From contig JASJFT010000102.1 in assembly GCA_030770425.1 (NCBI GenBank), forward strand, positions 1 to 64,000: DNA of 64,000 nt, read 5' to 3'. Both the position numbers and the translations under genes were made by a program. This document shows positions 6,234-44,628 of the stretch, one piece after another. The notes under the pieces were generated by a model that searched no databases, had not been told where the DNA came from, and saw nothing but the letters and a program-made list of their open reading frames with translations. Within the stretch, counting starts at the first letter, position 1, and every line of letters begins with the position of its first letter. The stretch comes from Darksidea phi (taxonomy: Eukaryota > Ascomycota > Dothideomycetes > Pleosporales > Lentitheciaceae).

Positions 6234-9229
6234 ATGTCTTCCCTTCTCGACGTTGCGCTCAATTCAGACGCTGCTCCTACTCCCTCAAGCGATGCTGGCG
6301 CGCCACGGCAGTCGCAGTTCCGTTCTTCCTCCCGCCCGCGCGGACCCCCTTCTGAGAGCGCCGGCGCAAACAGTGATGCCGAGGGATTCCCAGATGACGA
6401 GGTCGTTGGTGCAAGAGTAGCGGGAAGGAGGGTCAATGGGGCGCGGATGGATGTGCCCAAGGTTGTCGACGTGACTGGGGAAACTCTCTCATTGAGATTT
6501 CAGGAATTTCTCGAGAGGTAGGCGCAGCGTCTTTGTCTGCCGCATTGACAGCTAACCCTATGATAGCTATACAGAAGATCCTACGTCGTCGGCATTACCT
6601 CTATCGAGCGTCCCTACCTCGGATAAATACTACATCGCGCAGATTGGGGGTATGCGGCTTTATGGCCTCTCGACACTGTATGTCGATTACACTCATCTGC
6701 AGAGGCACGAAGATGGCGTGTTGGCTGCCGCGATCGCGAGCGAGTACTATCGCTTCCTCCCCTACATGATACGCGCCCTCCACAACTTGATTGCGAAGTA
6801 CGAGCCGCAATACTTTCGCCAGCATCGTCAGCCTACATCGAGCGCTTCCGTGACAGCCGCCTCTCACTCCGACAATGCGACCCAGAACCAGAGCCTCAAC
6901 GAGAAGACTGCTAATCAACAGACGGACAAAATCTTCACTCTCGCCTTCTACAACCTTCCCCTTATCTCACGCATCCGCCACCTGCGGACAGAGTCGATTG
7001 GAAGCTTGATGTCCATCTCCGGCACGGTGACTCGTACCTCGGAAGTCCGACCAGAGCTGTCTATCGCCACCTTTATTTGCGAGGCCTGCAACACCGTCGT
7101 CCCGAACATAGAGCAGACGTTCAAATACACAGAGCCGACACAATGCCCAAATACCACCTGCGGGAACCGAGAAGGGTGGCGGTTGGACATTAGACAATCT
7201 ACCTTCGTTGACTGGCAGAAGGTGCGCATCCAAGAGAACAGCTCTGAGATCCCCACAGGTAGCATGCCCCGCACAATGGACGTCATCCTACGTGGGGAAA
7301 TAGTCGATCGAGCGAAAGCCGGAGAAAAGTGCATCTTTACTGGAACTGTCATTGTCATTCCAGATGTCAGCCAGTTCAGGGTCCCAGGTGTGAAGGCTCA
7401 GGCGACGAGGGACAATTCGAATGCCCCCCGTGGAAATGACGTCGGCGGGTCTGGCGTGAGCGGTTTGAAGGCTCTAGGTGTCCGCGATCTCACATATCGC
7501 ATGTCATTCCTGGCCTGCATGGTGACACCGGACATGTCTACTCCTGGGCAGTCCGCCTCGAATAACCACCACATGACCGGTCAGGCAGGCAATATCCTTG
7601 CGTCACTGAATCAGGTCCAGGCAATGGAGACTACGGCGACCGGCGAAGAAGCACAAGCAGAGTACCTCGCCACGCTCACACCCCAAGAGATCGAAGATCT
7701 CAAGGACATGGTGCACAAGCCGAATATCTTCATGCGACTCGTGGACTCCATTGCGCCTACAGTGTACGGCCACCAGGTCATCAAGAAGGGCCTCCTTCTC
7801 CAGCTCATGAGTGGTGTGTCCAAGCAGACACCAGAGGGCATGGCTCTACGTGGCGATATCAACATTTGTATCGTGGGCGATCCCTCTACCTCAAAATCCC
7901 AGTTCCTGAAATACATCTGCAGCTTCCTGCCGCGTGCTGTTTATACATCAGGCAAAGCCTCATCCGCCGCTGGTCTCACCGCCGCTGTCGTCAAAGACGA
8001 GGAAACCGGCGAGTTCACCATCGAGGCCGGAGCACTCATGCTTGCGGACAACGGAATTTGCGCTATTGACGAGTTCGACAAGATGGATATCGCAGATCAA
8101 GTCGCTATCCACGAAGCCATGGAACAGCAGACCATCTCCATTGCCAAAGCGGGTATCCAAGCTACGCTTAATGCAAGAACTTCAATTCTTGCAGCTGCCA
8201 ACCCTGTCGGCGGCAGGTATAATCGTAAGACAACGTTAAGGGCTAACGTCAATATGTCAGCGCCCATCATGTCTCGTTTTGATCTCTTTTTCGTCGTCCT
8301 AGACGAGTGCGACGAGGACGTTGATCGCCATCTCGCAGAGCACATCGTCAACATTCATAAAGATCGCGACGATGCTATTGTACCGGAATTCAGCACCGAG
8401 CAGCTACAACGCTACATCCGCTTCGCTCGCACATTCAAGCCTGAGTTCACGGACGAGGCGAAAGAGACTCTAGTAGAGAAGTACAAGGAGCTCCGCGCCG
8501 ATGATGCTCAAGGTGGTATTGGAAGGAACAGTTATCGCATCACAGTCCGTCAGCTCGAGAGTATGATACGTCTATCTGAAGCTATCGCGAAAGCCAACTG
8601 CGTTAGCGAAATCACTCCAGACTTTGTGAAAGAAGCGTACAACCTTCTTCGTCAATCCATTATCAGCGTCGAAAAAGACGACGTCGAAATGGAAGACGAA
8701 GACGACGAGGCTGTTTTGGCTGCTGCCGCGGCCGCCGAATCCCAGGAGGCGGATGCGGACATGGCGGCCGAAGGAGATGCACAAGACGGTGAGGCAGCTT
8801 CCAGTGCACGGGCAGCGAGTCGTACTCCTGCTCCGCCGCGCGAGAAGACGAAGATCACGCATGACAAGTACGTCGCTATGCGCAACCTCTTTGTCAAGCG
8901 CGTCAATGAAGACCAAGCATCTACCGAGGACGGCGTAGAGGAAGAAGAGCTGCTTGTGTGGTATCTTGAACAGAAGGAATCAGAGCTAGAGACACAAGAA
9001 GATCTTAACAACGAGAGAGCGCTTGCGAAGAAGGTGTTGAGGAAGATCTGCAAGGTAAGCATCAAGAACCTCGTGTATTCGTACGAGATGAGCAGGGCTA
9101 ATTTTCTTGCAGGAGCAATATCTCATGCAAATCCGCGGTGAAGGCCTCGTAGACGAACAGGGTCAGGCAGATTCTTCGAAGAATATCTACGTTTTGCACC
9201 CGAACTGCCCTGTGGAGGATATTGTCTAA
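6234..9229 (+). CDS. mcm6: DNA replication licensing factor MCM6
   Basis: Three exons: 6234-6517, 6567-9054, 9113-9229, giving 962 aa. It is one of the six subunits of the MCM2-7 replicative helicase. Visible in order: acidic/Ser-rich N-terminus; a zinc site with CEAC and a second cysteine pair in CPNTTC; MCM6-specific wording around VDFQ/W-KVRIQE and LGVRDLTYR; Walker A GDPSTSKSQ near residue 532; Walker B CAIDEFDKM; arginine-finger SRFDL; then an acidic, Ala/Glu-rich linker (about 790-840) and a winged-helix-like C-terminus. The Ser in place of Gly in the Walker A (GDPST) is normal for MCM6. Without the last splice the frame ends early at an in-intron stop, so the third exon is needed to reach the conserved end (YVLHPNCPVEDIV). 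Confidence 0.96.
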
Positions 9230-9898: not shown

Positions 9899-12205
9899 TT
9901 ATACAATATCAATGGTAAAAGGAGGCGGCTGCCCCGCCCTCTCAGCAGAGTTGTAACTAGCCTGAATCGAGCAAAAAGCAAGCAACCAGGCATGATCTGA
10001 ATATCGTTGCCCCGGGGGCGAGAATGCTGCGGCAATGCATGGCCCGACGTAAGTTGCTTTGAGGGGAACAGCGCGCAACGTTTGCCCAACAGCGTCACGT
10101 AAAACTGGTGGCGTTTCCCATGGCTCGTCTGGTATTGTTCGGGAAGGCGCGGTAATGGCGTGTGTTCCGGAGGTTTCAAGCTTTACGACGATCATATTAG
10201 TAAGCGCAGTATCTACTACAAAGGCATTGCGCTTGGGTCGGATGAAAGTCTCGTTCTGGAGTATTTTGCTCCAGGTTGTCTGGTACCCGTGGTCGACGCG
10301 ACCCGGCACACAGCTTTCAAGCGGGATAAGGCGCATACCCTTTTCAAGGCTTGAAGGCCCGATAACGTACTCGAGTTCATCGGATTTATCGATCCGCCAG
10401 CTAAGCGGCTCATACTCCAGTTCGGCAATGGCGAGCTTTGCTGCATGCAGAATAAAGCACATCTCTTTGATAATTGCTTTGACAACTTCGATGGCGTCTT
10501 CTCCACTTTTCTTGAATAATTTCTCCAAGTAAGTGTGAGACGATTGCCCAAGCTTTACATGTTCCATTGCTGTAAAAATGGAATACAGAGCTAGAGCCAC
10601 AAGCACACCGCGCTTCGAGGGTTTCCACTTGGCCAGTGTCTTCGAGCCATATTTTTCCATGATGAATTGAATTACCAGAGCCAGTCGTCCCAAATTATCA
10701 GAAGCGCCACCATGCTTGGCGAAGGAATCCTTGATATGCATGTTTTCTGCAAAGGGGCTGAACCGATGGGCAAGGTTTAACCAATTATCAGCTCCAAGCT
10801 CTTCCTCTGTAATTCTAATGACTTTGGAGATTGCTCCGCCATACGGTCCCACCCATGGATTGACCCACGATACATTTAATTTTTCGTTGCCGCTATCGTG
10901 AGCTCGCGCCGAGAAGATAGTGCAGGGCGGGCCTATGTTGTCTGCATTTCTGGACAGCTGGCTGTTAAGCCACTCCTTCCACTCACGAATTTCTTGAGAG
11001 CAATTATTATTACCGATTTTAGCGTATCCTCGAATCCTACGCCAGGACTCGTATCCTTGCAAAGCCCTTGGGATAAACAATGCCTCTCGATAATGAGGAG
11101 CATCGGGAGGCGTACGCAGATTTGGAAACATAGTATTGCGCTTGTTGGACCAATCCGGTATCCATGAAGGGAATGAAGTATTGCTAGGCGCCTGAACTGG
11201 ACCGAAATTAAATAGATGGAGGATTAGGTCATGCTGAGAAAGACTATTGGCCAGTGATACGGCATGCTGTTTGTAAAGATATTGGTAATCTCTTGTGTAT
11301 TGCAGAGTTAACTGCTTGTTGCGAGGTAGCAATCCATATAGCGCTGCGATTCGATCTCTTTTGTCGCAACAGGCTGATCGATGCAATCTCCAAAGGAGGG
11401 AGTATATATCTCTTTCCGCCTCGGCGAGGGTACTTATCATCTTCACCGCGTACTCTTGCTCTGTTGATTGAGGTTTTCCAAGTCGGTGGCAAGCTGAGGT
11501 GAATCTCGAATACGAAATCGAATGGCTACCGCAGTGCACCGTCCCGTGATACGCGAGTGCCACTTCTTGGAGGATCCAGCGTCTGAAGAACCATGCGCGT
11601 TTGAAGAATAGTCTGATCTGTGAAGCACCCGTTTCATAGTCCTCGAATACCTTAGCGATTGGTACATCGTCCAGAGACACAGCGAGAAGCCGGAAATAAG
11701 CAAAGACGTTGGCAATGTCGCCGCCATCCTCAGTTCCAAGCCAGAAGTGTACCTTGTCGGCCTGCTTATATATCTCACCCATCAAGGGAATTTGCTGCGC
11801 CTTCTCGGTGTCGTCGTTTTGATTCAGACAAATAGCGTCGATCCAGAGATACCGCCGTTTATGGGGTTTACGGAGGTGAACAAGTATGGTTTTGACATTC
11901 TCTGTAATCGACAGATAACACCTGTAGTTCGCGCCATCTTCGTCCTTGACTAAAAGGCTCAGCCTTTCGGAGAAATCAGGGTCTCCCCATGCGTATGACA
12001 CAGCGGAATAACCTTGAGGGTTGTTCACAAGCTTTGCGTATCGGTCAACGTGGATAAGTGATGCTTGGAGAGGATTTGATCGGGCCTCCGCTGGTTCCAA
12101 GCAAAGAATACGAAGCGTATTTGGAGACTTGAGAGAAACATATTTGTAAGGCTGAGGAAGGGTGAAACACGAATCAGACGGAGGTTGGTGCAAAGAGTCA
12201 GCCAT
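9899..12205 (-). CDS. Heterokaryon incompatibility (HET) domain protein
   Basis: One uninterrupted 768-aa frame. The HET domain occupies roughly residues 60-230 with its characteristic blocks: YSAVSYAWGDP (about 66-76), YLWIDAICLNQ (119-129), then MGEIYKQADKVHFWLG (142-157). HET proteins are associated with non-self recognition and programmed cell death on fusion of unlike hyphae; the domain is distantly TIR-like. The remaining 500 residues carry no repeat, P-loop or membrane segment that I recognise, so the recognition partner is unknown. It sits beside an AT-rich, gene-poor block, which fits accessory, fast-evolving HET loci. The start at 12205 is the first ATG upstream of the conserved block. 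The frame is intact, so it is probably functional. Confidence 0.92.
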   Translation of the reverse strand: MADSLHQPPSDSCFTLPQPYKYVSLKSPNTLRILCLEPAEARSNPLQASLIHVDRYAKLVNNPQGYSAVSYAWGDPDFSERLSLLVKDEDGANYRCYLSITENVKTILVHLRKPHKRRYLWIDAICLNQNDDTEKAQQIPLMGEIYKQADKVHFWLGTEDGGDIANVFAYFRLLAVSLDDVPIAKVFEDYETGASQIRLFFKRAWFFRRWILQEVALAYHGTVHCGSHSISYSRFTSACHRLGKPQSTEQEYAVKMISTLAEAERDIYSLLWRLHRSACCDKRDRIAALYGLLPRNKQLTLQYTRDYQYLYKQHAVSLANSLSQHDLILHLFNFGPVQAPSNTSFPSWIPDWSNKRNTMFPNLRTPPDAPHYREALFIPRALQGYESWRRIRGYAKIGNNNCSQEIREWKEWLNSQLSRNADNIGPPCTIFSARAHDSGNEKLNVSWVNPWVGPYGGAISKVIRITEEELGADNWLNLAHRFSPFAENMHIKDSFAKHGGASDNLGRLALVIQFIMEKYGSKTLAKWKPSKRGVLVALALYSIFTAMEHVKLGQSSHTYLEKLFKKSGEDAIEVVKAIIKEMCFILHAAKLAIAELEYEPLSWRIDKSDELEYVIGPSSLEKGMRLIPLESCVPGRVDHGYQTTWSKILQNETFIRPKRNAFVVDTALTNMIVVKLETSGTHAITAPSRTIPDEPWETPPVLRDAVGQTLRAVPLKATYVGPCIAAAFSPPGQRYSDHAWLLAFCSIQASYNSAERAGQPPPFTIDIV

Positions 12206-13365
12206 CTCACTAGGGCTTTATCTTTGTTGGAGGTAACAGGTACGGCGTTACTCGTGTTTGCGTGCTGGCAGATATGTTCAAGCTAAGAGGTGATGAGGCT
12301 GAAGCCGAAGATAAAGTGAGTGGCGCCCGCCATTGTACGCACGTGAACTCCGTATCTTCTAACCAATCAAAACAATCGACGTTAACCTCTACTGTAGTTG
12401 CAGGGTGAAGTGTTATCACGTCGCTAACTTAAGCAAGTGTCATAGTTCACGCTCTAGAAGTCCCTAGAACTTAAACTTTTTGGCTATTTTATACACACAG
12501 ATTCGGATTTTGTTCATTTTAGCTATTGAGACTATACCCAGTATACTATGAGAAACGCATGTGCTACAAAAACAGCGTTTATACAGTACTGATTGAGATT
12601 TCGCTCAACTTGTAAGCATCCAGAGTACTAGCAAGAGCTATATTCCAAACTCCATAATAGAAAGAGTATTTATTTTTGAATATTGTTTTTAGTACGGTGT
12701 CTTTTATATCTACTATTTTATCATTATAATATCATCACTTCGTCGGTACCTCACGATCGACAGTACTGTGTACAGCTCTATAGCTCCATTATCGTGTATA
12801 AGGTGTGGGTATAGCACCTCTACTATGTACAAATTCCTACTATGTTCCGTGCGGACCATACAAAAGAGACTCCCACTGTGCAAATCCAAAACAAATAATT
12901 ATAAATAAAGATTCACTTCTCGCAGCTATCCTTAAAGCGTGGAGAGGGGCAAAGATTACTGGCTATATGAAGGGCGACCACTTCAGTTTTCGCTTTGAAG
13001 TCTAGATTCTTATTGTTACTAGTTGATGTTTCTAGATGTCAGTTTCAACTTCTTGGAGGTGAGCGCAGCACAGCACGTTAACACCGTCCCATATGTTATC
13101 AATGCAGAAAGCCAAGATATTCCTCGGCAGGCATCGCGTAATGCCCGCAACACGGCATTTAAAAGCCAAAACAATGACCTATTGCAAAGAGAAAAAGCGC
13201 CAGTCGTGACGGCGTATTCCTGGTCATTATTCATCACTAAGTGCTACTTGTAGTGATAGATCTACCTATGACTTGCAAGTATCTATGAGTGGGCTGGGTA
13301 TCGTGATAAGCTTCGTTACAAAACTTGTAAAATGGCCGTTGCCGGTAACTGCTCCTGCAACGGTT
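12206..13365. other. AT-rich gene-free block
   Basis: From about 12420 to 13340 the sequence becomes clearly richer in A/T than its neighbours, with many TATA/TACTAT words and no credible frame on either strand. It follows the HET gene promoter and precedes the 3' end of the Gid8 gene. It may be a decayed, RIP-mutated repeat; I could not identify an element. Confidence 0.5.
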
Positions 13366-28180: not shown

Positions 28181-31100
28181 TCACCCCGCTTTCTCAGTGT
28201 CTACATTAACATTCCAAATCCTCAACGTCTGCCCCCTACTCCCCCTCTTCTTCCCAGCCTTCGCCTTCCCATCGGCATGCTCCCCAAGCCTGAGCATCGC
28301 CTTCGCAACATGCGCCAACGCGTCGACAAACTCGCTCATGCGACCCGTGTCCAAGAAAACCTTCTGCAACCACGCGCGCTCATTGTCGGCTACCAGCGTA
28401 GCAAGATCCATGGCCTTGGTTGCGGTCTCCCTGTGGATGAAGAAGCTTCCCGACTGCAAGATGGACAGGTAGGCGAAGATGAGGTCGGGGAAGTAAGCGA
28501 GGTACAAAGGCCATATATTGGGAGAGGTGGCGGGATTATACGAGAGGTCGACTAGAGAAGCGAAAGTGGATACGATGGTGGTCAGGAGGTCTTTAACGCG
28601 CTTTGTCGAGATTTGCTGCGAAGCGTCGCGTTGACTGGGGTGAGGGAAGCCAATCAGCCTGCTAGCCTTGAAGAACCCGTACTCGGATAAAGAAAGGGGG
28701 ACTAACGAGATGAGCCATTCCTCCTCCTCGCGCCACTGGCGGAAATACGTGATGAGACGGACGAGCTGACTGAGGTCGTAGTAGGTCTGGCTTGCAGCCC
28801 GCAGGCTGTGGACGTAGTAAGCGTGTTCTTGTGCGCTGGGGATTGCGGACGGGCGCACCGAGTCGTGGCCTGAGCTGAAGTGGCGCATAGCTTCGGCGAC
28901 TTGTTCTTCGTCCTGGTCTTCTGCGCCGGCTTGTGTGAAGTCGAAGGCATAGCCGCACAAGGCGGCTGTTTTGGTAAGAGACATGGTTTCGACACTCATT
29001 TCGGAGACTAGCTTCTCGGCGGCGCCCATACGGCCGTTGACTAGTTTATTAATTTAGTTCATTGCCACACTCAATAAACAAGGAAAGACTTACCCAGGAA
29101 TGTCTTCAGGGCTTTGAACAAAGCTGTGAAAGTGTCTTCGTACTCTGTCTCGAGGTGATTGTACCATTGGAGACACTCAAGGAAAGCCTCTTCCTTGGCC
29201 GAGATATCGAAACCGGATATGTTGTGCTGGATGCGGACTCCAGGCCAGAGATACGCATCCTTTCCGGTCCATTTCTCGACTATCGTGAACCTTGAGATCA
29301 TATTTGCCATCTCCTTACCAGCATAGAGCCCAGAGCCACCAAGTTGAAGCTTGAAGTTTACGTTGACCACCTCAGTCGTGTTAACTCCATACTGCTCCAT
29401 GAGCATGATGCATCGTTTTTGCTCATCGTTGTTCTTGACATCGGGTAGGATGCGAGCCAGACAATGATGAGCTCTCCAACCGCCAAGTTGCGCAGCGTAC
29501 AAGGGTATCAGTTGGAGCCGTTTGGTGACCCGTAGAAACTCAATATAGGCGACGGCGACGTTTTGCATTGCGTACGCTTTCGGGCTCATGTCGTAGTCCA
29601 TCGGATTGAGAACTTCCCGGTAGACGAGAAGAATATGGACTAAGAGGCGGAGGGCGTGCGGATCTCTTGCGATCGTTTGGTAGTATGGCTCGGCGCTTAC
29701 AGCTCGTTGCTCCGTAGCCTTCTTGGACGTCGGATCTTCCGGATTCGTATCAGGGTCGATTATGAGATTTACGAGACGATCATCGTCTTGCAGCATATCG
29801 GCAATAGCTATGCCGACTTTGTACAGGAGATCGGTCATGGTCCCGCTAATGAGTGCCCCTTGAATGAGTTTGATCGGGGTCTTCGCTTGATCTGAGGTTG
29901 CCGCATTCCGCTTCAACAGCTCTATAACCTGCTTGTTTGAAGTCTCCCAGTCGTCGAACTGTGCAACCGCGTCTTGGAAAACAAACTCTAGGACGGTTTT
30001 CTCAGACACCCACGGATGAGGCTTCGGATTCTGCCGAAGATAGCGGTCAAATCTGGATAAGAGGAGAGCGTTGTAATAAGCGTAAAGATGATCATCCCAC
30101 GATCGACAGGTAGCTTGAACCTGCTTATAATCTCCGCTGAGGAGTGCATACACGGCACCCTCATAAGGCATCTTGGCTCCCCGGGCAGCGTAGAAACACA
30201 TTCGTCGGTAAAGGTAACCAAGATCGCTTCCGGCTACATTCGGTCCGCCGTCAGGATGGGAATCGTAGGCAGCACCTAAGCTCACTCCACGCCACGCTTC
30301 GTTTCGTTCCTTGCACCACTCGCTGATCTTGTCCCATGGCTCGCCTCGACGAAGCATTTCGTAGCATACCATCCACAGCGCATTCTCGTAGTACTCATCC
30401 GACTTCTCCAGGGTGCGTTTTTTCTGCCTCAATGGGGCATCGGGGTCTAACCGTGTGATCAAAGGTTGGGCACTGCCGTGGCCCTGTACTATGTGATCCT
30501 TGTCTAACGGTCTTTCCGAGCCCTGCATGCGTTTTGCTTGTTTGATTTTGGCCTTCGTATCTAGCCAGCCGCTTGTCCAGGTGTTGGTGTCTTTACCGGA
30601 AACCTCTCCCCACTGTGCGACAATCGATTCGATATCGCTCTCGGTGTTTCTTGCTGTCTGCTGTAGCCACTTCAAGATGACCTTCTTCTCCCGCGCCGCG
30701 TCATCTTCTATGATGAACCGGTCCCACACTTCGTTCTTCTCGCTGAAGCGACTTGTGCCTCCCGCGTCTGTCAACTGTGCCGCTTTTCTCGCCGCTACAT
30801 CGGTACCAGGCTCGGGATGATGATGATCTATTATTATACGCACGAGCTCCCATGTCGCTAATTCGGCTTGCCAATGTCGTAGCTCTCGTACACTAGTAGA
30901 GTCCGATGCGGCGCTGGGCTCTATCGACGGGACGATAGACAAGGAAGATCGTCCGAACAGGTTCTCGCCGTCCTCATTGGCAATATTTTGGATACGCCCA
31001 CGCACACTCTTGTCCAGCGCGCCCTGGTTTTCCGCGCTGTTCTGCTTCTTCAGTTCCTTGACTGTTGATTCTGCCAGATCCCTGAACTTCCCCACCATCT

Positions 31101-31423
31101 TTACGGTCGTGTGGTATTTCGTCTGCTCACTTTCATTGCCATGGGTATGCCAGTGGTCGACTCTTTCGGCAAACTTTTCCACCTCTTTCCCCACTCTGTC
31201 TGCCATTGCTCGGAGCGGCTGGAGAGGATCGTTTACGGAAAGACTGTTCGCGCTTCGTGAGGCTCCAATTGAGGTCGCATGGTTGCTGTTGGCCTACATA
31301 GTACATTCTCTGTCAGCAGGAATATAGGATACTCTTGGCGATTTGCTGGAGCTCGACTCAATGTCGTAGACTTACCTGAGATGCCATGGACTGCGACCGC
31401 CGCGAAAACGGGAATGCCGCCAT
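28181..31423 (-). CDS. nup84: Nucleoporin Nup84/Nup107
   Basis: Three exons: 31423-31376, 31293-29094, 29040-28181; 1035 aa. The protein is almost entirely alpha-helical, as expected for this ACE1-type scaffold nucleoporin of the Y-shaped (Nup84/Nup107-160) complex. Recognisable stretches: RREPWDKISEWCKERNEAWRGVSLG preceded by ENALWMVCYEMLRRG, then RMCFYAARG, ALLSGDYKQVQATCRSWDDHLYAYYNALL, and the C-terminal MEQYGVNTTEVV. Introns are 82 and 53 bp. The first exon encodes a short Arg/Ser leader (MAAFPFSRRSQSMASQ). The protein acts at the nuclear envelope in pore assembly and mRNA export; the conserved core is complete, so it is almost surely functional. Confidence 0.94.
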
Positions 31424-35697: not shown

Positions 35698-38062
35698 ATG
35701 CTCCCACAGCAATCACGCTTCCTGAGCAGAGGCCTCCGCAGTCAACCTCGGTATCAATGTCTTAACACACGCTCCACGGCCCAATTTTCCTCGTCATTAC
35801 AAAAGAGCAGCTACGACGACACCATTTCCAACCTTAAAATCGGCCCCCACACTCGCGTCATCTTCCAAGGTTTCACCGGCAAACAAGCCACAGCCAATGC
35901 CCAAGAATCCATAGCATGGGGCACCAATATCGTCGGCGGCGTCAAGCCTGGTGGTTTAGGCGAGCATTTGGGATTACCTGTTTTGCCGTCTGTGAGAAAA
36001 GCTATGGAGGAATTGAAGCCGCATGCCACGGGGATCTATGTGGCAGCGCATCAGGCGACGGCTGCGATTGAGGAAGCGATTGAGGCTGAGGTCCCGCTAA
36101 TTGTGGCAGTTGCTGAGCATATTCCACTACATGATATTATGAGAGTGAGTTAAAATGCATGTGGGAACCAGACATTTATGTGTGCAAAGACTAATAAGCT
36201 GAATAGATACATTCAATGCTACAAACGCAGTCTAAATCTCGACTTGTAGGCGCGAATGCTCCCGGGATCATCTCAGCAATCGGCCGGTGTAGAATCGGCT
36301 TCCAACCTCTACCCACTTTCTCTCCAGGCCATATCGGCATTGTGGCGAAATCTGGTACGCTTTCTTACGAGACGGTTGGATCATTGACGAGAGCGGGATT
36401 GGGTCAGAGTCTTTGTATTGGTATGGGTGGAGACGTAATCGCAGGGACGAACTTTGTGGATGCGTTGAAAGTGTTTGAGACCGACGATGATACCGAGGCG
36501 ATTATTATTGTGGGGGAACTAGGTGGTACGAGTGAAGAGGAGGCTGCGGACTGGATTAGGGAGTATAGAAAGAGAACGAAGCATCCAAAGTGAGTACCTT
36601 CTCAAGTAGAAACGGGATGGTATACTGACGGCCATAGACCCATCGCAGCAGTCATCGGTGGGTTCCGAGCAGCACCAGGCCGCATCATGGGACATGCAGG
36701 CGCTTGGACAGGCATTGGTGAAGGGACAGCAGAGTCCAAGTACAAAGCACTGGAAAGCGTAGGAATCACCATGGTAGACCACCCGGCGAAGTTCGGATCC
36801 GTGATGAAGGCCATTCTATCAAAGGCTGGCCGAAGCGTTAAGAAGATTGTAAGAATATTCCATTCTTCTCTTAAACCACTAGAAAGTTGAGGGCTAACTT
36901 CCTCTAGGAACAATCAGCAGCCCAAGCCCAACAACACCGTTCATACCACACAACATCACACTCCCCGCGCCATCCCCTTCTCTCAACTACTTCCCCAAAT
37001 GTCCAGCAAAAGCGCCCTCTACACCTCAACGCCCACCAAACCTCCGCCCTTCTTGAATCCTACAACATAACCACCTCCCCCTGCTCCTCTCCACAACCCT
37101 CCTCCGCCCACCTCCTCGGCATAACAGTATCCCGCTCCGCCCGCTCCCCTAGCATAATCACCTCCCCAACCACCAACCCCACCCAACTCCCGCACCGCGC
37201 CCGCCACTTCCCCTTCGACTACCGCCTCGGTCCCACCCCCGAAGCCATAGCCGCCGCAACAGCTCATCTCCAACTCGACATCGCGCCCCCAAGAGCAAAA
37301 GCGCAGACCACAGGCCTAATATATAAACTGTGGAAACTGTACTACGAAAAAGAAGCTATAACTGCTACCGTCTCGCTAACAATCCCGTCGTCCGCTGACG
37401 AAATTGTAGCGTATGATCCTTATCTCTTCTTCGACGATGCGGCGTTCAAGTCCTGTAAACGACAAGTCGACCTGCACGCCCTCCGCGACTTATCAACCGC
37501 TTCTCCTGTAGAACTCGAAGCAGAGAAAAACGGCATCGTCTACATCCGCCTCGCATCGCCCCAATTTCCAAGCAGCACAACGCGAACACCAGCAGAAGAA
37601 CCCCACAATCTAATAGGCACCCTAGTAAACGGCGCCGGCCTAGCCATGAACACAAACGATGTCCTAGCCCTGCGCCTCTCCTCCCCCTCCTTCTCCTCCT
37701 CCTCCTCCTCCTTCCCAATCTCCACGCCCCCCTACCCAGCAAACTTCCTCGACACAGGCGGCAAAGCCACCGCCGCCACAATATCAACCTCCTTCTCATT
37801 AATCCTGTCCGACCCGCGCGTCGCCGTCGTCTTCGTAAACATATTCGGCGGCCTCACGCTGTGCGACATGATCGCCGAAGGCATCATCTTGGCTTTTAAA
37901 GAAGTCAAGGTGGAGAAACCGGTCGTGGTGAGACTGAGGGGAACGAATGAGGAGAAGGGGTTGCAGGTGCTGAGCAGGGCCGGGTTGCCGATTAGAGCTT
38001 TTGATGGGTTTGAGGACGCGGTGAGGGAGGTGGGGAGGTTGGCGCGTGGGGGAGGATTGTGA
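35698..38062 (+). CDS. Succinyl-CoA synthetase-like alpha-beta fusion, beta ATP-grasp degenerate
   Basis: Four exons: 35698-36144, 36207-36589, 36638-36848, 36908-38062; 731 aa. Residues 1-45 are an Arg/Ser-rich mitochondrial targeting leader. Residues about 50-345 are a full SCS alpha subunit: [44 protein letters not shown] and the phospho-histidine motif GHAGAW (His296). Residues 348-731 correspond to SCS beta, but the ATP-grasp part is shortened: a beta-like start ([12 protein letters not shown]) jumps to [17 protein letters not shown], leaving out the nucleotide-binding lobe, and the usual metal-site segment (IEINP) reads TATVS. The C-terminal CoA-ligase domain is conserved ([44 protein letters not shown]). 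It is therefore an SCS-like enzyme in one chain that is unlikely to bind ATP in the usual way. Reaction unknown. Confidence 0.88.
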
Positions 38063-38767: not shown

Positions 38768-40282
38768 CTATGCAAGACCCGCGAAGTAACCCACGGCGGA
38801 ACCTGCGAGTTGGGAATTCAGTTAGCAATTGTTTTGGGGGAAAGGGAGTCGTACTCGGGTATGCGTACCGATAGCAGCCATCACGCCGAGGCCAACAAGT
38901 GCTCGCCGGGTGACCTTCTCCTTGGCAAGCTTCTGTTCAGTGGTAGACATGGTCCTTGCCAGCTTCGCTGGGCGCTCTTGTCGAGGCGCTTCGACCTCAT
39001 TCTCGTCTCTGGAAAGATCGTCCGCCTTGCGCTTCGACTTGCCGGCCTTGACTGCTCCACCTTCGAGCAGGTTAGCCTCGTGTACCATCCTCTTCGCTTC
39101 CTCTATCATTTTGGTAGGGTCCTCGGGCTCGGCAATCTCGGGGTGATTTGCAGGCACGTCGATCTTGACATTTGTCGTGGTGGTTTCCACATCGCCATTT
39201 TGCTCCACGGTCTCTTGCACCTCAATCCGCACGGTGTCAGGCTCTTTTACTTCTCCATTGACAGATTCTGACGCAACTGACTCCGACGCAGTGGTGCCGT
39301 TCTCCAGCGCATTCTGCAAAGCGCCGGGCGAGGAAGTCGTCTTGGTTTCAAACATTTCTTCCAAGTGCACCGCTTCTGCCTTTGCTGCCCTTCTTGTACG
39401 TGATTTGCGCGGGCTGGCCATCTTGCGACTAGGTGTAGCGATCTTGCTCGGTGATACAGAACGAGAAGATCGAGCGCGGGTTGAGCGGAGCGCCGAAGTT
39501 GGAGGAAGCACAATCGCAGGCGGGGAAGCCTTTGTGATGTCGTACTTAGGAGGCATTTGGATGTGTGTGTTGGACTTTTCCTTGGAGCCCTTTTCAATCG
39601 GCGCGGGGTCGAGTAGGGCTTCGATCCACACACGTATACCGTATTGCTCGGCCAGAGCAAGCGCTGTGAAGGCCTTGCGTCAGTGCGCTCTTTAGGTGAC
39701 AGAAATAGCGGTCTAGGACATTCACTCACCTTCATCGGGCACTATCCACACACTGCCCGCCTCTTCAGGTCCACCAGACTGGAATGTTTTCTGGTACTTG
39801 CGTTCTGCTTCTTCTTCGGCAAGTGATGCCCAGGGAAAGGCTGCCTTGAACATGCCCGTTGCGCTTACGTACCCATCGCTGCTGCGTCGCTGTCCACCTC
39901 GTTAGTCGATCCGATGCCTTGTCATGATGTGAGTTTCTTCCATCACCATACCATCAGGAAGTACGCTTCAGGGTACGCGGTCGTAGACTTCAGCTTGAAG
40001 ATACCCGATCCACTCAGATCTTTGGGCAAGGGTACCCGCAAATGCGCATAGTCAAAAGTGCCCGAATTCTCCGTCTTCGACGCATTCGTCCCACCGCCGA
40101 TGTCCGGAGTCCCGGGCAGGTTTGTCTGACCTAGTCGCCGACGCTCTATAAGGCTCTCTTCTGCGCGCGATGGTCAGCCGTGGTTCCGCGATGGATGCGA
40201 TGCGCTGGCACGTACTCGAGGGAGAGCTGGCTGGGGCAATCAGAGGGTTCCTCCGCTCCGGCAGTACTCGTTTCGCAACCAT
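38768..40282 (-). CDS. bqt4: Bqt4-like APSES/KilA-N domain protein with C-terminal membrane anchor
   Basis: Five exons: 40282-40216, 40160-39952, 39889-39730, 39663-38869, 38802-38768; 421 aa. The N-terminal 150 residues form a KilA-N/APSES-type fold ([69 protein letters not shown]). It is followed by a disordered Ser/Glu-rich linker with basic [10 protein letters not shown], an AKLARTMS stretch and, across the last splice, a 20-residue hydrophobic end ([23 protein letters not shown]). This layout is that of S. pombe Bqt4, an inner nuclear membrane protein that tethers telomeres and lamin-like partners through Bqt3. The tail anchor only appears if the 35-bp last exon is spliced in; reading through the intron gives a polar end instead. 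DNA binding by the APSES fold is not assured in this family. Confidence 0.85.
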
Positions 40283-41247
40283 TTTCGGATAATTAGTTGG
40301 GATTACAACAGATACAATGTGTGAGATGATGCGCGCAGCGCGATAGTGGTTGGCGACGGCGATGGATGATGTGCTCCACGCGCAACGGGATAGGTAGGAA
40401 CGTGGGATGGGTCGACTAAGTCGAGTACCAGCAGCTGGGCACAGTGAAGTGATTACTGCGACGCGATCTAAGTGATTGTGAAGGCGATGCGCGACCCTTG
40501 GGAAGTGCTGGCGACAAATGTCTGAGAATCGAGGAGAGACTGGAGGAGCGGAGCGTTCGAGGTTCGCTCGGGGGTACCCTGCGAGTACAGGTGGCTGGCG
40601 CACGGGCGAATGACCAGCCTCGTCCCCAGACAGGCATCCTAAGCGCAATTGCAAAAACTCTGCGTCCCTTTCCGGCGCCTGCTATAATTTCAGAATCCCG
40701 ATTGGTCGTGGGGAGATGCCAGCGAAGAACATCGCGTTCGATGCTGGATGACAGACGCGGTTAGCGCAACTGCCGGCATCTCCCAGTGCGTGCGAGGATC
40801 TGAAGCTCATCGCGCTATGGTTTACATAGTAAGCTCGTACGGAATACAAAAGCAAAATATGGCGATCTAGCAAGACACAATACTCCGAGCCTGTTAGCTT
40901 CCCGCCCATCTCATGTACTTCTACAAGTTGATGGTTTCTCGGCGGCCAGGATAAATCAGGTGACGCACGCCAAGCTATGCTTGACCGAGTTTGGACAGAC
41001 GCAGTTGGAGACATTCACCCCGACGAAGCCAGTATCAACTGTTCGACGCACGAGCGCAGCAAGTGACCAATCGAGCTGCATCTCAGGCTTCTTTGAAGCT
41101 TCCGGCTTGCGCTATTACTACGCTCACCAATATCACGACCACCCTCGCGACCAGCCCTGATCTCGGACAAGCATATCATGTGGTCATGATACAGCATCTG
41201 TAAAGCTTGCACCGTCTCCAAAAAGCTGGCTCGGCCAGCTTCTCATT
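40283..41247. other. Divergent gap bqt4 / fig4, carries dispersed repeat
   Basis: 965 bp with no gene. It contains promoter sequence for both genes and one copy of a 91-bp repeat (40786-40876) whose inverted partner lies 9 kb away. Confidence 0.5.
40786..40876 (+). repeat. 91-bp dispersed repeat, copy 1
   Basis: Matches 50012-50102 in reverse complement over 91 bp with two differences. No terminal inverted repeat or target duplication is evident at its ends. It lies in the shared upstream region of bqt4 and fig4. Confidence 0.85.
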
Positions 41248-44200
41248 ATGGAGAGCGCTAAACAAAAGTCATACGTAAATGAGCGGCCAAGCTCAATAGC
41301 TAGCTCGACAAGGGCGGCAGAGTCAAATGAAAGCCTGGACGACAAACTTGAGGATATCGAACAAGCATCCACGACCATTGGAAGTCCAGCACTCACCGCC
41401 AAGAGTGATGTACTGGTTAACGGCTTCAAACCAGAAGCGGATGTGGAGAAGGGGCCGGGGAGACCGCGGAGAGACACGGAGGGTATCAAGTTCGAAGGAG
41501 AAGATGAGGATCCTGCTGTTCCGGTGTCATTCCAAAGGTCGTTGAGTCCGGCAGGTATGCAGAAGGGCAAGGCGTCTGCATATGAAAAAGTTGGGGAAGT
41601 CGGGATCAACAGAATGCACAAGTTCTCTCTTTACGAAACGAGCACACGGTTCTACCTCGTTGGAGCCGACATCATGGAAAAGCGCTACCGAGTACTGAAG
41701 ATTGACCGAACTGCGGCACCTGGGCAACTCACCATCTTTGAGGACGACATCGTATATAACAAGCCGGAGATGAGCCAGCTGCTGAATGCGATCGACGACG
41801 GGAACAAGCACACCGGAGGCATGAAGCTTAAGTGCAGCACATGGGGACTTATGGGCTTTATAAGGTTCACTGAGGCGTATTATATGGTGCTCATAACAAA
41901 GAGAGCGCAGGTGGCAATGATTGGCGGTCACTATGTCTACCAGGTGGATGGCACAGAGCTGATACCGCTTACCACCGGATCCTCGTCACGGTTCGCAAAA
42001 GATCGACACCCTGAAGAGGCAAGATTTCTGAGTATCTTGCACAACCTGGACCTCAATCGCTTCTTCTACTTTAGCTACTCGTACAACATCACACGCAGTC
42101 TCCAGCAAAACATTATCCGTGAGAGGCAAGCGCTAAATGAGGGCGAGGCCCATGCCAAACCCGACTTCCAGGACATGTTTGTCTGGAATCACCACCTCCT
42201 CGAACCCGCTCAAGCAGCAATTAAGAATGTGTACGACTGGTGCCACCCAATAATACACGGCTCCGTCGACCAGTCATCTATTGATGTCTTCGGTCGTAGG
42301 ATCTACATTACGCTTCTCGCAAGGCGGTCAAGATTCTTTGCAGGCGCACGCTTTTTGAAGCGTGGGACCAATGATCTAGGCTACGTCGCGAACGATGTTG
42401 AGACGGAGCAGATTGTGTCCGAAGGGCTTACTACATCGTTCCATGCGCCTGGACCACGACTCTTCGCCAACCCTACATATTCATCATACGTCCAACACCG
42501 TGGCAGTATACCCTTGTACTGGACACAAGACAATACAGGGGTTACACCTAAACCGGACATTGATTTAAACCTGCCAGATCCATTTTTCAGTGCTGCAGCG
42601 CTTCACTTCGATAACCTATTCGAGAGGTATGGTGCGCCAGTATTTGTGCTGAATCTCATCAAGCAGCGAGAACGAACACAAAGAGAAGGGAAGCTTCTCC
42701 ACGAGTACAAGCACGCTCTAGATTACCTCAACCAGTCATTACCAAAGGAGAAGAAGATTCTGTACGAGGCATTCGACATGGCTAGGGCTTCTAAAACCCG
42801 TGGCCAGGATGTCATTGGCACCCTGGAGCTTCTAGCTGAGAAGATCATACAGAAAACAGGATTCTTTCACAACGGCGACGAGGAGTTCGATTCGCCACGT
42901 GTACAAAATGGAGTTGCACGGACAAATTGCATCGACTGTCTCGATCGAACAAATGCTGCGCAGTTCGTTATCGCGAAGCGGGCGCTTGGGCGACAGCTCC
43001 ATGCGCTTGGTGTCATTGCAGGGTATACAGTAGAGTACGATAGCGATTGTGTCGACAGCTTTAATCACATGTTCCATAACCATGGGGATGCGATAGCTAT
43101 GCAGTACGGCGGCTCGCACCTTGTCAACACAATGGCTACTTATCGGAAAATCAACCAGTGGCAGAGCAGTTCGAGAGACATGGTCGAGAGCTTCAAACGC
43201 TACTACCACAACTCGTTCCTCGACTCGCAACGGCAAGAAGCCTACAATTTGTTCCTTGGTAACTACATCTTCACACAGGGTCTACCTTTGCTATGGGATC
43301 TAGTTACCGACTACTATCTACATCACGAAGACCCACGCTCTTTATTCCAGAAACCCCGGAGAGACTACATCAAGTGGTACACCCCGGACAATCTTGAGCC
43401 ACGGTTCCTTCCAGGTTTAAAGAAACAGTTACAACTCACAAACAAGGGCGTAGCACCTCATGACGACTACTGGCTTGAATACTACCGCCCGTTAGCTGTG
43501 ACGTCCTTCCTGAAAGTGTACGCTTTTCGTCTCAATTGTTCACCAAAGGAGCCAAAAGATACTTCTTTCCCTTCGCGCCAACTTGACCATTCTCCATTCA
43601 TCGTTCGCAAGAAACAGCAAGACCAGCACTCGCCAGGCAAAGACAGCAAAAAGACGCGAAAAGAAGTCACTATCCTCGACCCTTCCAGCGAGACCGAATC
43701 CCGTCGAAACAGCATCCTCGCCCGGCGCCGTCAACAAATCCATCTCACCATCCCAGAAGCAGGGTCTCCGGTCAAGCAATCTATCCTCCGAGACCCGCAA
43801 TTCGAAACATACATGCCAGCCTCCGCTCCCGCAGTAACCAGCGCCTTCCCATCTCTCTCTACCTCAACCTCTACAGGCCTATCAACTAGCTACGGCACAA
43901 AGCATTTCAAACCCGCCGACAAAACCCTCATCCACCAATGGACACTCTCCCAATTCCAAGAAAACAGTCTAAACCCCACCGTCACCGCCCTCGAAGAAGC
44001 CGAATACACACGGTACATAGAACACCCATTAAACCTACCCCTCGTCGTCAGCAATGACATCCCCAGCGCAGACGACCCTGGCGCACTCGATTACTACGAG
44101 TACCTCGACATGGCGGAAAGCGGGGCGCAGAAGGTGTCTGAAACGACGCCTATGCGTCCGACAACAGCGAACTTTTGTGGACATGCAGATGCTGATACGG

Positions 44201-44628
44201 CGTCTATACGCTCTTTCAACACATATACCCGTCCTACATCCGCCGCCGGCTACCCTTACACGCCCTTCTCCCATCCATCATCACACCCCCATCAACACCC
44301 CCCTATACCGTCCCACTACAGTCTGTACCCACACCTGCACCAACACCAAAACCCGCACTACCCGCATCAACACCAACACCCGCACTACCCACACCAAGAC
44401 CATGCCATCGAGCAGCCAGCCGCTGTATCGGGAAAATTTGTCACGGCAGAGGAGGATATAGATGAGTTTGAAGAGTTTCTTCAGGTGAAAGAGAATCCGC
44501 TTGATGTGGAGGAAGACGATGGCGCGAAGAAGAGGTATAAGGCGTACCGGCAATGGTTGAAGGGAAAGAGCTTTTTTAAACAGAGTAAGGTGGATCCGGA
44601 GTGGCAAAATCAGTTGCCTGTTAGGTAG
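41248..44628 (+). CDS. fig4: Polyphosphoinositide phosphatase Fig4 (SAC domain)
   Basis: Single exon, 1126 aa. After a 110-residue disordered head, the SAC domain begins at HKFSLYETSTRFYLVG and continues through FIRFTEAYYMVLITKR, FARNPTYSSYVQ-like FANPTYSSYVQHRGSIPLYWTQD, to the catalytic RTNCIDCLDRTN with Cys561 and the CX5R loop complete. Fig4 removes the 5-phosphate of PI(3,5)P2 and also stabilises the Fab1-Vac14 complex on the vacuole or late endosome membrane (family knowledge). C-terminal to the SAC domain there is a basic Ser-rich region and a His/Pro-rich stretch (about 1010-1055), then an acidic end. It is longer than the yeast protein (about 880) because of these tails. The absence of introns over 3.4 kb is unusual beside its intron-containing neighbours. 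Confidence 0.95.
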   Translation: MESAKQKSYVNERPSSIASSTRAAESNESLDDKLEDIEQASTTIGSPALTAKSDVLVNGFKPEADVEKGPGRPRRDTEGIKFEGEDEDPAVPVSFQRSLSPAGMQKGKASAYEKVGEVGINRMHKFSLYETSTRFYLVGADIMEKRYRVLKIDRTAAPGQLTIFEDDIVYNKPEMSQLLNAIDDGNKHTGGMKLKCSTWGLMGFIRFTEAYYMVLITKRAQVAMIGGHYVYQVDGTELIPLTTGSSSRFAKDRHPEEARFLSILHNLDLNRFFYFSYSYNITRSLQQNIIRERQALNEGEAHAKPDFQDMFVWNHHLLEPAQAAIKNVYDWCHPIIHGSVDQSSIDVFGRRIYITLLARRSRFFAGARFLKRGTNDLGYVANDVETEQIVSEGLTTSFHAPGPRLFANPTYSSYVQHRGSIPLYWTQDNTGVTPKPDIDLNLPDPFFSAAALHFDNLFERYGAPVFVLNLIKQRERTQREGKLLHEYKHALDYLNQSLPKEKKILYEAFDMARASKTRGQDVIGTLELLAEKIIQKTGFFHNGDEEFDSPRVQNGVARTNCIDCLDRTNAAQFVIAKRALGRQLHALGVIAGYTVEYDSDCVDSFNHMFHNHGDAIAMQYGGSHLVNTMATYRKINQWQSSSRDMVESFKRYYHNSFLDSQRQEAYNLFLGNYIFTQGLPLLWDLVTDYYLHHEDPRSLFQKPRRDYIKWYTPDNLEPRFLPGLKKQLQLTNKGVAPHDDYWLEYYRPLAVTSFLKVYAFRLNCSPKEPKDTSFPSRQLDHSPFIVRKKQQDQHSPGKDSKKTRKEVTILDPSSETESRRNSILARRRQQIHLTIPEAGSPVKQSILRDPQFETYMPASAPAVTSAFPSLSTSTSTGLSTSYGTKHFKPADKTLIHQWTLSQFQENSLNPTVTALEEAEYTRYIEHPLNLPLVVSNDIPSADDPGALDYYEYLDMAESGAQKVSETTPMRPTTANFCGHADADTASIRSFNTYTRPTSAAGYPYTPFSHPSSHPHQHPPIPSHYSLYPHLHQHQNPHYPHQHQHPHYPHQDHAIEQPAAVSGKFVTAEEDIDEFEEFLQVKENPLDVEEDDGAKKRYKAYRQWLKGKSFFKQSKVDPEWQNQLPVR
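44278..44400 (+). repeat. His/Pro-rich coding repeat in fig4
   Basis: The codons for PHQH, PHYPHQ and HQHPHYPHQ recur in tandem, giving a His-rich patch in the Fig4 tail. DNA level repeats of CACC/CCCGCACTACCC type cause it. Confidence 0.8.

Follow-up and report, generated by a model that had tools for sequence, protein, structure and literature searches.

A fused, lid-less relative of succinyl-CoA synthetase in fungi and its possible nucleotide-independent function

Gene structure and domain organization

A window of 64,000 nucleotides from Darksidea phi (the whole stretch analysed, positions 1 to 64,000 of contig JASJFT010000102.1) carries, at 35698..38062 on the + strand, a gene for a protein in which two halves related to the alpha and beta subunits of succinyl-CoA synthetase (SCS) are fused in the order alpha'-beta'. 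The source assembly comprises 477 contigs and 51.35 Mb and is fungal by gene content. The gene has four exons and encodes 731 amino acids (aa); among the GT-AG junctions scanned at the locus, a single set keeps the frame open to this length. Exon 1 (35698..36144, +) encodes a mitochondrial-type leader (about residues 1-33) and the CoA-binding domain (PF02629 at 35851-36120), exon 2 (36207..36589, +) the flavodoxin-like/CoA-ligase part of the alpha half, and exon 3 (36638..36848, +) the phosphohistidine loop and the end of that half. Exon 4 (36908..38062, +), in which the first Met does not come before exon residue 247, encodes a linker and the entire beta-like half. The protein would be located in mitochondria. 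An earlier note on this DNA, made from its letters, had described one continuous spliced frame joining an SCS alpha half, with the phosphohistidine His296 in GHAGAW, to a beta-like half in which the metal-site segment IEINP reads TATVS and the VVFVNIFGG of the CoA-ligase domain is kept; the frame and all of these letters were recovered in the spliced protein and its alignment.

Pfam matches on the 731-aa protein were CoA_binding (52-141), Ligase_CoA twice and Succ_CoA_lig, and both halves matched PDB chains of SCS in sequence. The beta CoA-ligase domain (37622..38008, +) was matched by PF00549 with an E value of 1.6e-19; no ATP-grasp family, PF08442 included, matched the fusion protein at E up to 1. 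The fusion has what marks an SCS alpha subunit (CoA-binding and CoA-ligase domains, the active-site His and E208) and the NIFGG and VNGAGLAM motifs of the beta CoA-ligase domain. The complete ATP-grasp domain of a beta subunit, with Lys46, the Gly-rich loop and the E/N/D metal ligands, is lacking: PF08442 is unmatched, and these residues are absent or replaced.

Searched with the profiles PF00549, PF08442 and PF02629, the assembly yielded, apart from the fusion locus, separate genes for SCS alpha (C437, 329 residues spliced) and SCS beta (C135, the sole PF08442 match in the genome; 443 residues in the form used, one of three possible). A further locus, C312, has matches to PF00549 and PF02629 and may be ATP-citrate lyase. 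Against the NCBIfam cut-offs for SCS alpha (336 and 353.2 bits), the fusion scored 300.4 and 295.7 and the canonical alpha 426.9 and 418.4; against that for SCS beta (370 bits), the fusion scored 176.2 and the canonical beta 496. The fusion thus fails cut-offs that the separate genes pass, in agreement with the earlier suggestion that it is not a regular enzyme of the tricarboxylic acid cycle.

Loss of the lid and of the nucleotide site

Of 217 homologues listed in database searches, the 151 with 660 aa or more were aligned with the window protein, with E. coli SucD and SucC, and with the canonical alpha and beta of the source genome; the 66 shorter proteins were dropped. Conservation was counted over the 152 rows formed by the window protein and its homologues; shared descent inflates all of these counts. 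Positions are labelled as in E. coli, and the ATP, Mg and acyl/CoA sites follow curated annotation of the E. coli enzyme.

More than 75% of the 152 rows have a gap opposite E. coli beta 25-102, and only one row (P0030) has any letters inside beta 30-98, two in number; lesser gaps lie opposite beta 131-136 and 257. The deletion scar is at 37076..37099 (+) in the window, where only a short Ser/Pro stretch separates the start of the beta half from later beta sequence. Subdomain 3 of the E. coli enzyme covers approximately beta 21-102. In the scheme of PMC11494057, subdomain 4 of the ATP-grasp unit is interrupted by an inserted subdomain 3, which forms the lid. By this comparison the deletion is shaped like the loss of the lid. 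The remaining ATP-grasp subdomain (37100..37501, +) is predicted to form a folded unit (predicted local distance difference test scores, pLDDT, of 83-98 by block). Among the 69 rows below 80% identity its mean pairwise identity is 0.45, compared with 0.76 for the alpha half, 0.66 for the CoA-ligase part and 0.39 for the linker. The earlier statement that most of the ATP-grasp lobe had been lost therefore stands as regards the lid subdomain and the metal ligands, and not as regards the remaining subdomain; it is better worded as a lid lost and a base kept without its metal ligands.

At the metal site (37367..37375, +), T-V-S stands for E197-I-N199. E197 and N199 occur together in one of the 152 rows and in none together with D213; taken singly, position 199 is kept in 17 rows and 213 in 25. 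The ATP positions beta 46, 53, 54, 55 and 99 are each kept in no row, beta 102 in three rows and beta 107 in two; beta 99 and 102 differ also in the canonical beta of the same genome. Given the removed lid and the decayed metal site, unaided phosphate exchange with ADP or GDP is not to be expected, and the fusion alone should not be capable of it. No sign was found that the missing lobe is encoded in extra exons, PF08442 matching the canonical beta gene only in the genome scan.

Distribution of the family

The whole-protein search gave 1050 matches, of which the best 120 (568-795 residues) were listed; the closest among those listed is from Lentithecium fluviatile (Dothideomycetes), with 78% identity over the full length. 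The beta half of a Patellaria protein (Dothideomycetes), used as query in a second search, added Leotiomycetes (e.g. Xylogone) and Xylariales (e.g. Xylaria). A third search sought long chains that combine both canonical halves. Each search listed 120 matches, out of 1050, 2993 and 771, respectively; the taxon range given here is that of the matches listed, and no absence is claimed for Eurotiales, Hypocreales or other groups. On the aligned sequences, the fusion with its deletion is a conserved family in Dothideomycetes, Leotiomycetes and Xylariales, where classes are assumed from the names of the rows except for lineages that were looked up. Two checks proposed in the earlier note, for the same architecture in other fungi and for canonical genes in this genome, thus gave positive results. 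A few rows carry plant names (P0136, P0179, P0189) and are presumably contamination.

In the newly listed metagenome rows of the second search, GHAGA and the beta CoA-ligase motifs lie in a single open reading frame in 48 of 48 cases, as they do in all 11 first-search rows that name no NCBI source; such metagenome-type rows would be unspliced reading frames. For the window gene, the late first Met of exon 4 gives no support to a separate transcript. The argument is not general, since a Met occurs between the end of the alpha half and beta residue 118 in 61 of the 152 rows, the other 91 being Met-free over this interval.

Conserved and replaced residues on the acyl/CoA side

The active-site histidine, His296 in GHAGAW (36693..36695, +), is present in 150 of 152 rows, the other two (P0072 and P0149) having gaps. 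Glu140 (36115..36117, +) stands for the glutamate of ITEGIP, a motif that reads VAEHIP in the window protein; it and Glu253, which corresponds to E. coli alpha E208 (36516..36518, +), are found in all 152. Counted by E. coli position, alpha T17 is kept in 150 rows, G18 in 149, E98 in 152 and Y159 in 151, alpha S154-G155-T156 in 151 each, and beta N264, G265, A266, G267, L268 and G321 in 152 each.

Next to these lie replacements that are themselves fixed: alpha 96 and 97 and beta 322 and 323 are V, A, L and T in 151-152 rows, the last two being Leu663-Thr664 of the window protein (37853..37858, +; 152/152 each) for Ile-Val. Further fixed changes are alpha G99H and P122A and beta V289T and G292K, the last two being T630 and K633 in the TGGK of the window protein (37754..37765, +), fixed in at least 97% of rows. 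The pattern speaks for another substrate, or another mode of holding CoA, over plain decay.

Reverse-order relatives and origin

Among the 120 matches listed in the third search were fusions in the opposite order, beta'-alpha', from Exophiala xenobiotica (Eurotiomycetes; P0283, P0286 and P0291) and from Teloschistales lichens (Lecanoromycetes; P0310 and P0321), known here from database protein models alone. They share with the window family the tree grouping of both halves, the VAEHIP/VAEHVP motif and a basic linker; they differ in order and in having the ATP-grasp domain present. That they might represent the same architecture as the window gene was rejected on the reversed order. K46, G53, R54, K56, E107, E197, N199 and D213 are all kept in four of the five rows. 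The fifth, P0321 (Xanthoria steineri, 805 aa, a cluster of 10 sequences), shows K56S, E107D, E197A and D213G at positions that P0310, from a related lichen, keeps; an independent loss of nucleotide use in P0321 is possible. In the CoA-ligase domain, the VNIYGG stretch is missing from the P0310 model and an insert occupies the same place in P0291, both probably gene-model errors. The linkers of the two lichen rows contain one and three Met, so that separate translation of the halves may occur there; those of the three Exophiala rows contain none.

Maximum-likelihood trees were built with 14 of the 152 family rows (A1, 55 sequences; A2, 44 sequences). The alpha halves of the five reverse-order and 14 family rows unite against the canonical fungal ones (support 100/100); the beta tree has a branch, supported at 100/99, that splits family and reverse-order rows from canonical and bacterial rows. 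Pairwise identity is not decisive for kinship, the window alpha half being 50% identical to P0283 and likewise 50% to the canonical alpha of its genome. From the grouping with rows that keep the ATP site, it seems that an ATP-competent paralogue lost its lid in the window lineage. In the simplest history, a duplication would have given an SCS-like pair, which was fused twice in opposite orders, followed by loss of the lid in the window lineage and by a renewed loss of the ATP site in one lichen line. The anatomy, the conservation, the paralogous history and the loss of nucleotide-site residues are well supported.

Other beta-alpha SCS fusions were listed, mostly unnamed, one labelled Acidobacteria (P0254) and one EukProt (P0274). 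Like the window protein they hold SCS beta and alpha on one chain, and they differ from it in their opposite order, in their separate clade and in keeping the ATP-grasp residues in the two rows checked (P0254 and P0274). The same search returned P0218-P0235 and P0239 (Hymenoptera by name; about 850-1010 aa), of which P0218 has two full SCS-beta matches, at 8-442 and 470-902, and is either a tandem SCS-beta chain or a merged model. Fourteen fungal rows between P0292 and P0318 join a canonical-like SCS alpha to PF00928 (clathrin adaptor AP-2 mu by name), which would be neighbouring genes merged by annotation, or read-through.

The linker and internal processing

The linker (36908..37039, +; about residues 348-391) is mostly predicted to be disordered: pLDDT falls below 50 over residues 333-374 in the P0132 model and 1-35 in the model of the window beta half. 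Two nearly invariant arginine motifs stand out in it. Motif 1, RSYHT (36938..36952, +; pattern R-x-hydrophobic-H-T/S), is present in 140 of 152 rows and in 64 of the 69 rows below 80% identity; elsewhere in those 69 proteins, a total of 42,897 residues, the pattern matches once. Motif 2, RPLHL (37013..37027, +), aligns with the end of the canonical beta presequence (QQSRALSIHEY), its R having a frequency of 1.00 in 68 rows; the aligned stretch, placed where the canonical beta presequence would end, is QQSRALSIHEYRSANLL. Column frequencies are 0.93 for Q356, 0.99 for R358, 0.97 for H361, 0.93 for T362, 0.88 for both R369 and P370, 0.91 for Q381, 1.00 for R383 (68 rows) and 0.87 for L385, and fall to 0.13-0.46 over columns 371-380. 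The 48 residues starting just before motif 1 contain on average 8.1 basic and 1.9 acidic residues (64 rows). The canonical alpha has RRSYATG near its N-terminus, and the reverse-order linkers, with 8-13 basic and 0-3 acidic residues, hold RAFS, RTFS or RSFS.

PMC8835746 describes arginine at -2 or -3 in mitochondrial presequences and also names an amphipathic helix; in fungi, the mitochondrial processing peptidase makes an internal cut in the Arg5,6 precursor (PMC8835746, PMC10450427). The linker is likewise internal, basic and disordered, has arginine at the -2/-3 positions relative to a possible cut, and carries arginine motifs that look like mitochondrial processing sites. We give roughly even chances to the fusion being a polyprotein precursor, whose linker would be cut by the processing peptidase to leave the halves as a non-covalent pair; alternatively, the linker is what is left of the beta leader and has persisted for some other reason. 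If cut, the fusion would share with Arg5,6 the use of one internally processed precursor for two mitochondrial chains, as outlined in PMC8835746 and PMC10450427; the enzymes are unrelated.

Proposed function and alternatives

In SCS, a nucleoside triphosphate phosphorylates the active-site histidine at the ATP-grasp site, and at the other site the phosphohistidine gives an acyl-phosphate and then an acyl-CoA. The same course is given in outline in PMC11494057. In the fusion the first half-reaction appears to be gone, and the second keeps its nucleophile, the two glutamates and the phosphate-holding helix starts; nucleotide-free CoA transfer is therefore proposed. We tentatively favour, at somewhat less than an even chance, a nucleotide-independent phosphohistidine enzyme acting on acyl-CoA and phosphate, most simply a CoA transferase. 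An acyl-CoA and phosphate would give an acyl-phosphate, which would phosphorylate His296 with departure of the acid; phospho-His296 would then activate a second carboxylate, which would accept CoA. The net reaction would be acyl-CoA:carboxylate CoA transfer, nucleotide-free and with phosphate as a recycled cofactor. The loss of ATP use, the transferase reaction and the identity of the acids are inferred. The Pfam domains of CoA transferase types I and III are not among the matches of the fusion at E up to 1, which leaves the claim on mechanism untouched. A fragment of ATP-citrate lyase was ruled out, since the protein matches three Pfam families only at E up to 1, none of them citrate-synthase-like/citryl-CoA lyase; the absence of known CoA transferase and ATP-citrate lyase domains refers to the Pfam scan of the fusion protein only.

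Several points weigh against this proposal. Alpha S19 is kept in no row, Q20 in 102 and K43 in 53 of 152, and alpha I96 in one, with T97, beta I322 and beta V323 in none; with S19, Q20 and K43 lost to this extent and I96-T97 replaced, the protein may bind CoA differently or no longer at all. At the metal site, 39 of 152 rows still have E197. A transferase would require phosphate to be held at the site, for which nothing speaks directly. The conserved residues at the CoA/acyl site would also suit a ligand-binding regulator, and among the papers listed in searches of the openly licensed PMC literature none deals, by title, with a nucleotide-free or pseudoenzyme SCS.

A regulatory pseudoenzyme, which would bind CoA or succinyl-CoA without turnover and tune canonical SCS or another mitochondrial complex, is the next candidate, and we consider it unlikely although it deserves weight. 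It would account for lost nucleotide-site residues in a retained fold, for the altered CoA-contact positions such as K43, and for a genome that encodes canonical alpha and beta as well; the His, the two glutamates and the helix starts SGT and GAGL, kept in 150-152 of 152 rows, go beyond what a ligand sensor would appear to need. Phosphorylation in trans, in which canonical SCS beta or a mixed complex would charge His296 and nucleoside triphosphate would be used via the partner, is improbable. The retained phosphohistidine loop fits this idea, as does the canonical beta gene being the one place in the genome where PF08442 matches, but the fusion's own beta CoA-ligase domain would fill the place of canonical beta, and the retained dead subdomain might obstruct it. 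Marginally less probable still is an acyl-CoA hydrolase or phosphate-driven acyl-phosphate former, in which an acyl-CoA such as succinyl-CoA would be opened with phosphate and the phospho-enzyme hydrolysed; the residues kept are those on which the transferase proposal draws and a single acid suffices, but the thioester would be wasted. A gene-model artefact or decaying pseudogene, to which the odd architecture and mis-spliced-looking database models could point (His loop missing in 2 of 152 rows, linker motif 1 in 12, three of the ten such rows printed deviating by one letter), is hardly credible given the open frame in the window, GHAGA ahead of NIFGGL in 119 of 120 first-search and 96 of 97 new second-search rows, and site-selective conservation across the 152 rows.

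The favoured CoA transferase, with phosphate recycled, may also be taken together with cleavage of a mitochondrial polyprotein by the processing peptidase and with the ATP site decaying independently for a second time in P0321, in one lichen lineage; that all three hold at once is doubtful.

Neighbouring genes

Nine open reading frames of the window were compared with Pfam; none gave a CoA-related match, and five had no match at all. Housekeeping frames are MCM6-like (6556-9138, +), Nup84-like (29074-31293, -) and SacI-domain (41161-44625, +). A frame of 772 aa at 9902-12217 (-) encodes a HET-domain (heterokaryon incompatibility) protein. Next to the fusion gene, a frame of 285 aa at 38825-39679 (-) has no Pfam match and a basic middle part; it may resemble a Bqt4-like nuclear-envelope protein.

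Significance and comparison with known systems

Substrate-level phosphorylation has its textbook example in SCS, whose nucleotide lobe is regarded as essential. Removal of the lid alone, with the phosphohistidine site held in members of three fungal classes, offers a natural experiment on the capabilities of that site by itself. A CoA transferase here would connect acyl-CoA pools of fungal mitochondria by an additional route without nucleotide, and metabolic models would be misled by database names such as 'succinyl-CoA ligase subunit alpha', seen on matches. The linker makes the claim of internal processing directly testable.

No description of the family was found in titles or abstract starts of the papers listed in searches of the openly licensed PMC literature. 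From the mitochondrial and bacterial SCS (SucCD; SUCLG1 with SUCLA2 or SUCLG2) the window protein differs in being fused, in the absence of beta 25-102, in the loss of the Mg ligands, in fixed changes near the acyl/CoA site and in scores below the SCS cut-offs. With the NDP-forming acyl-CoA synthetases (ACD superfamily, e.g. Nmar_0206), which are described in PMC11494057 as single chains of shuffled SCS subdomains with a phosphohistidine on a swinging loop, it shares the single chain and the phosphohistidine loop; those enzymes have their own ATP-grasp subdomains 3 and 4, whereas the window protein is without subdomain 3. The parts are of known kinds, and what is new is their combination: a lid-less SCS relative with fixed new residues at the acyl/CoA site, a processing-like linker and ATP-competent relatives in reverse order.
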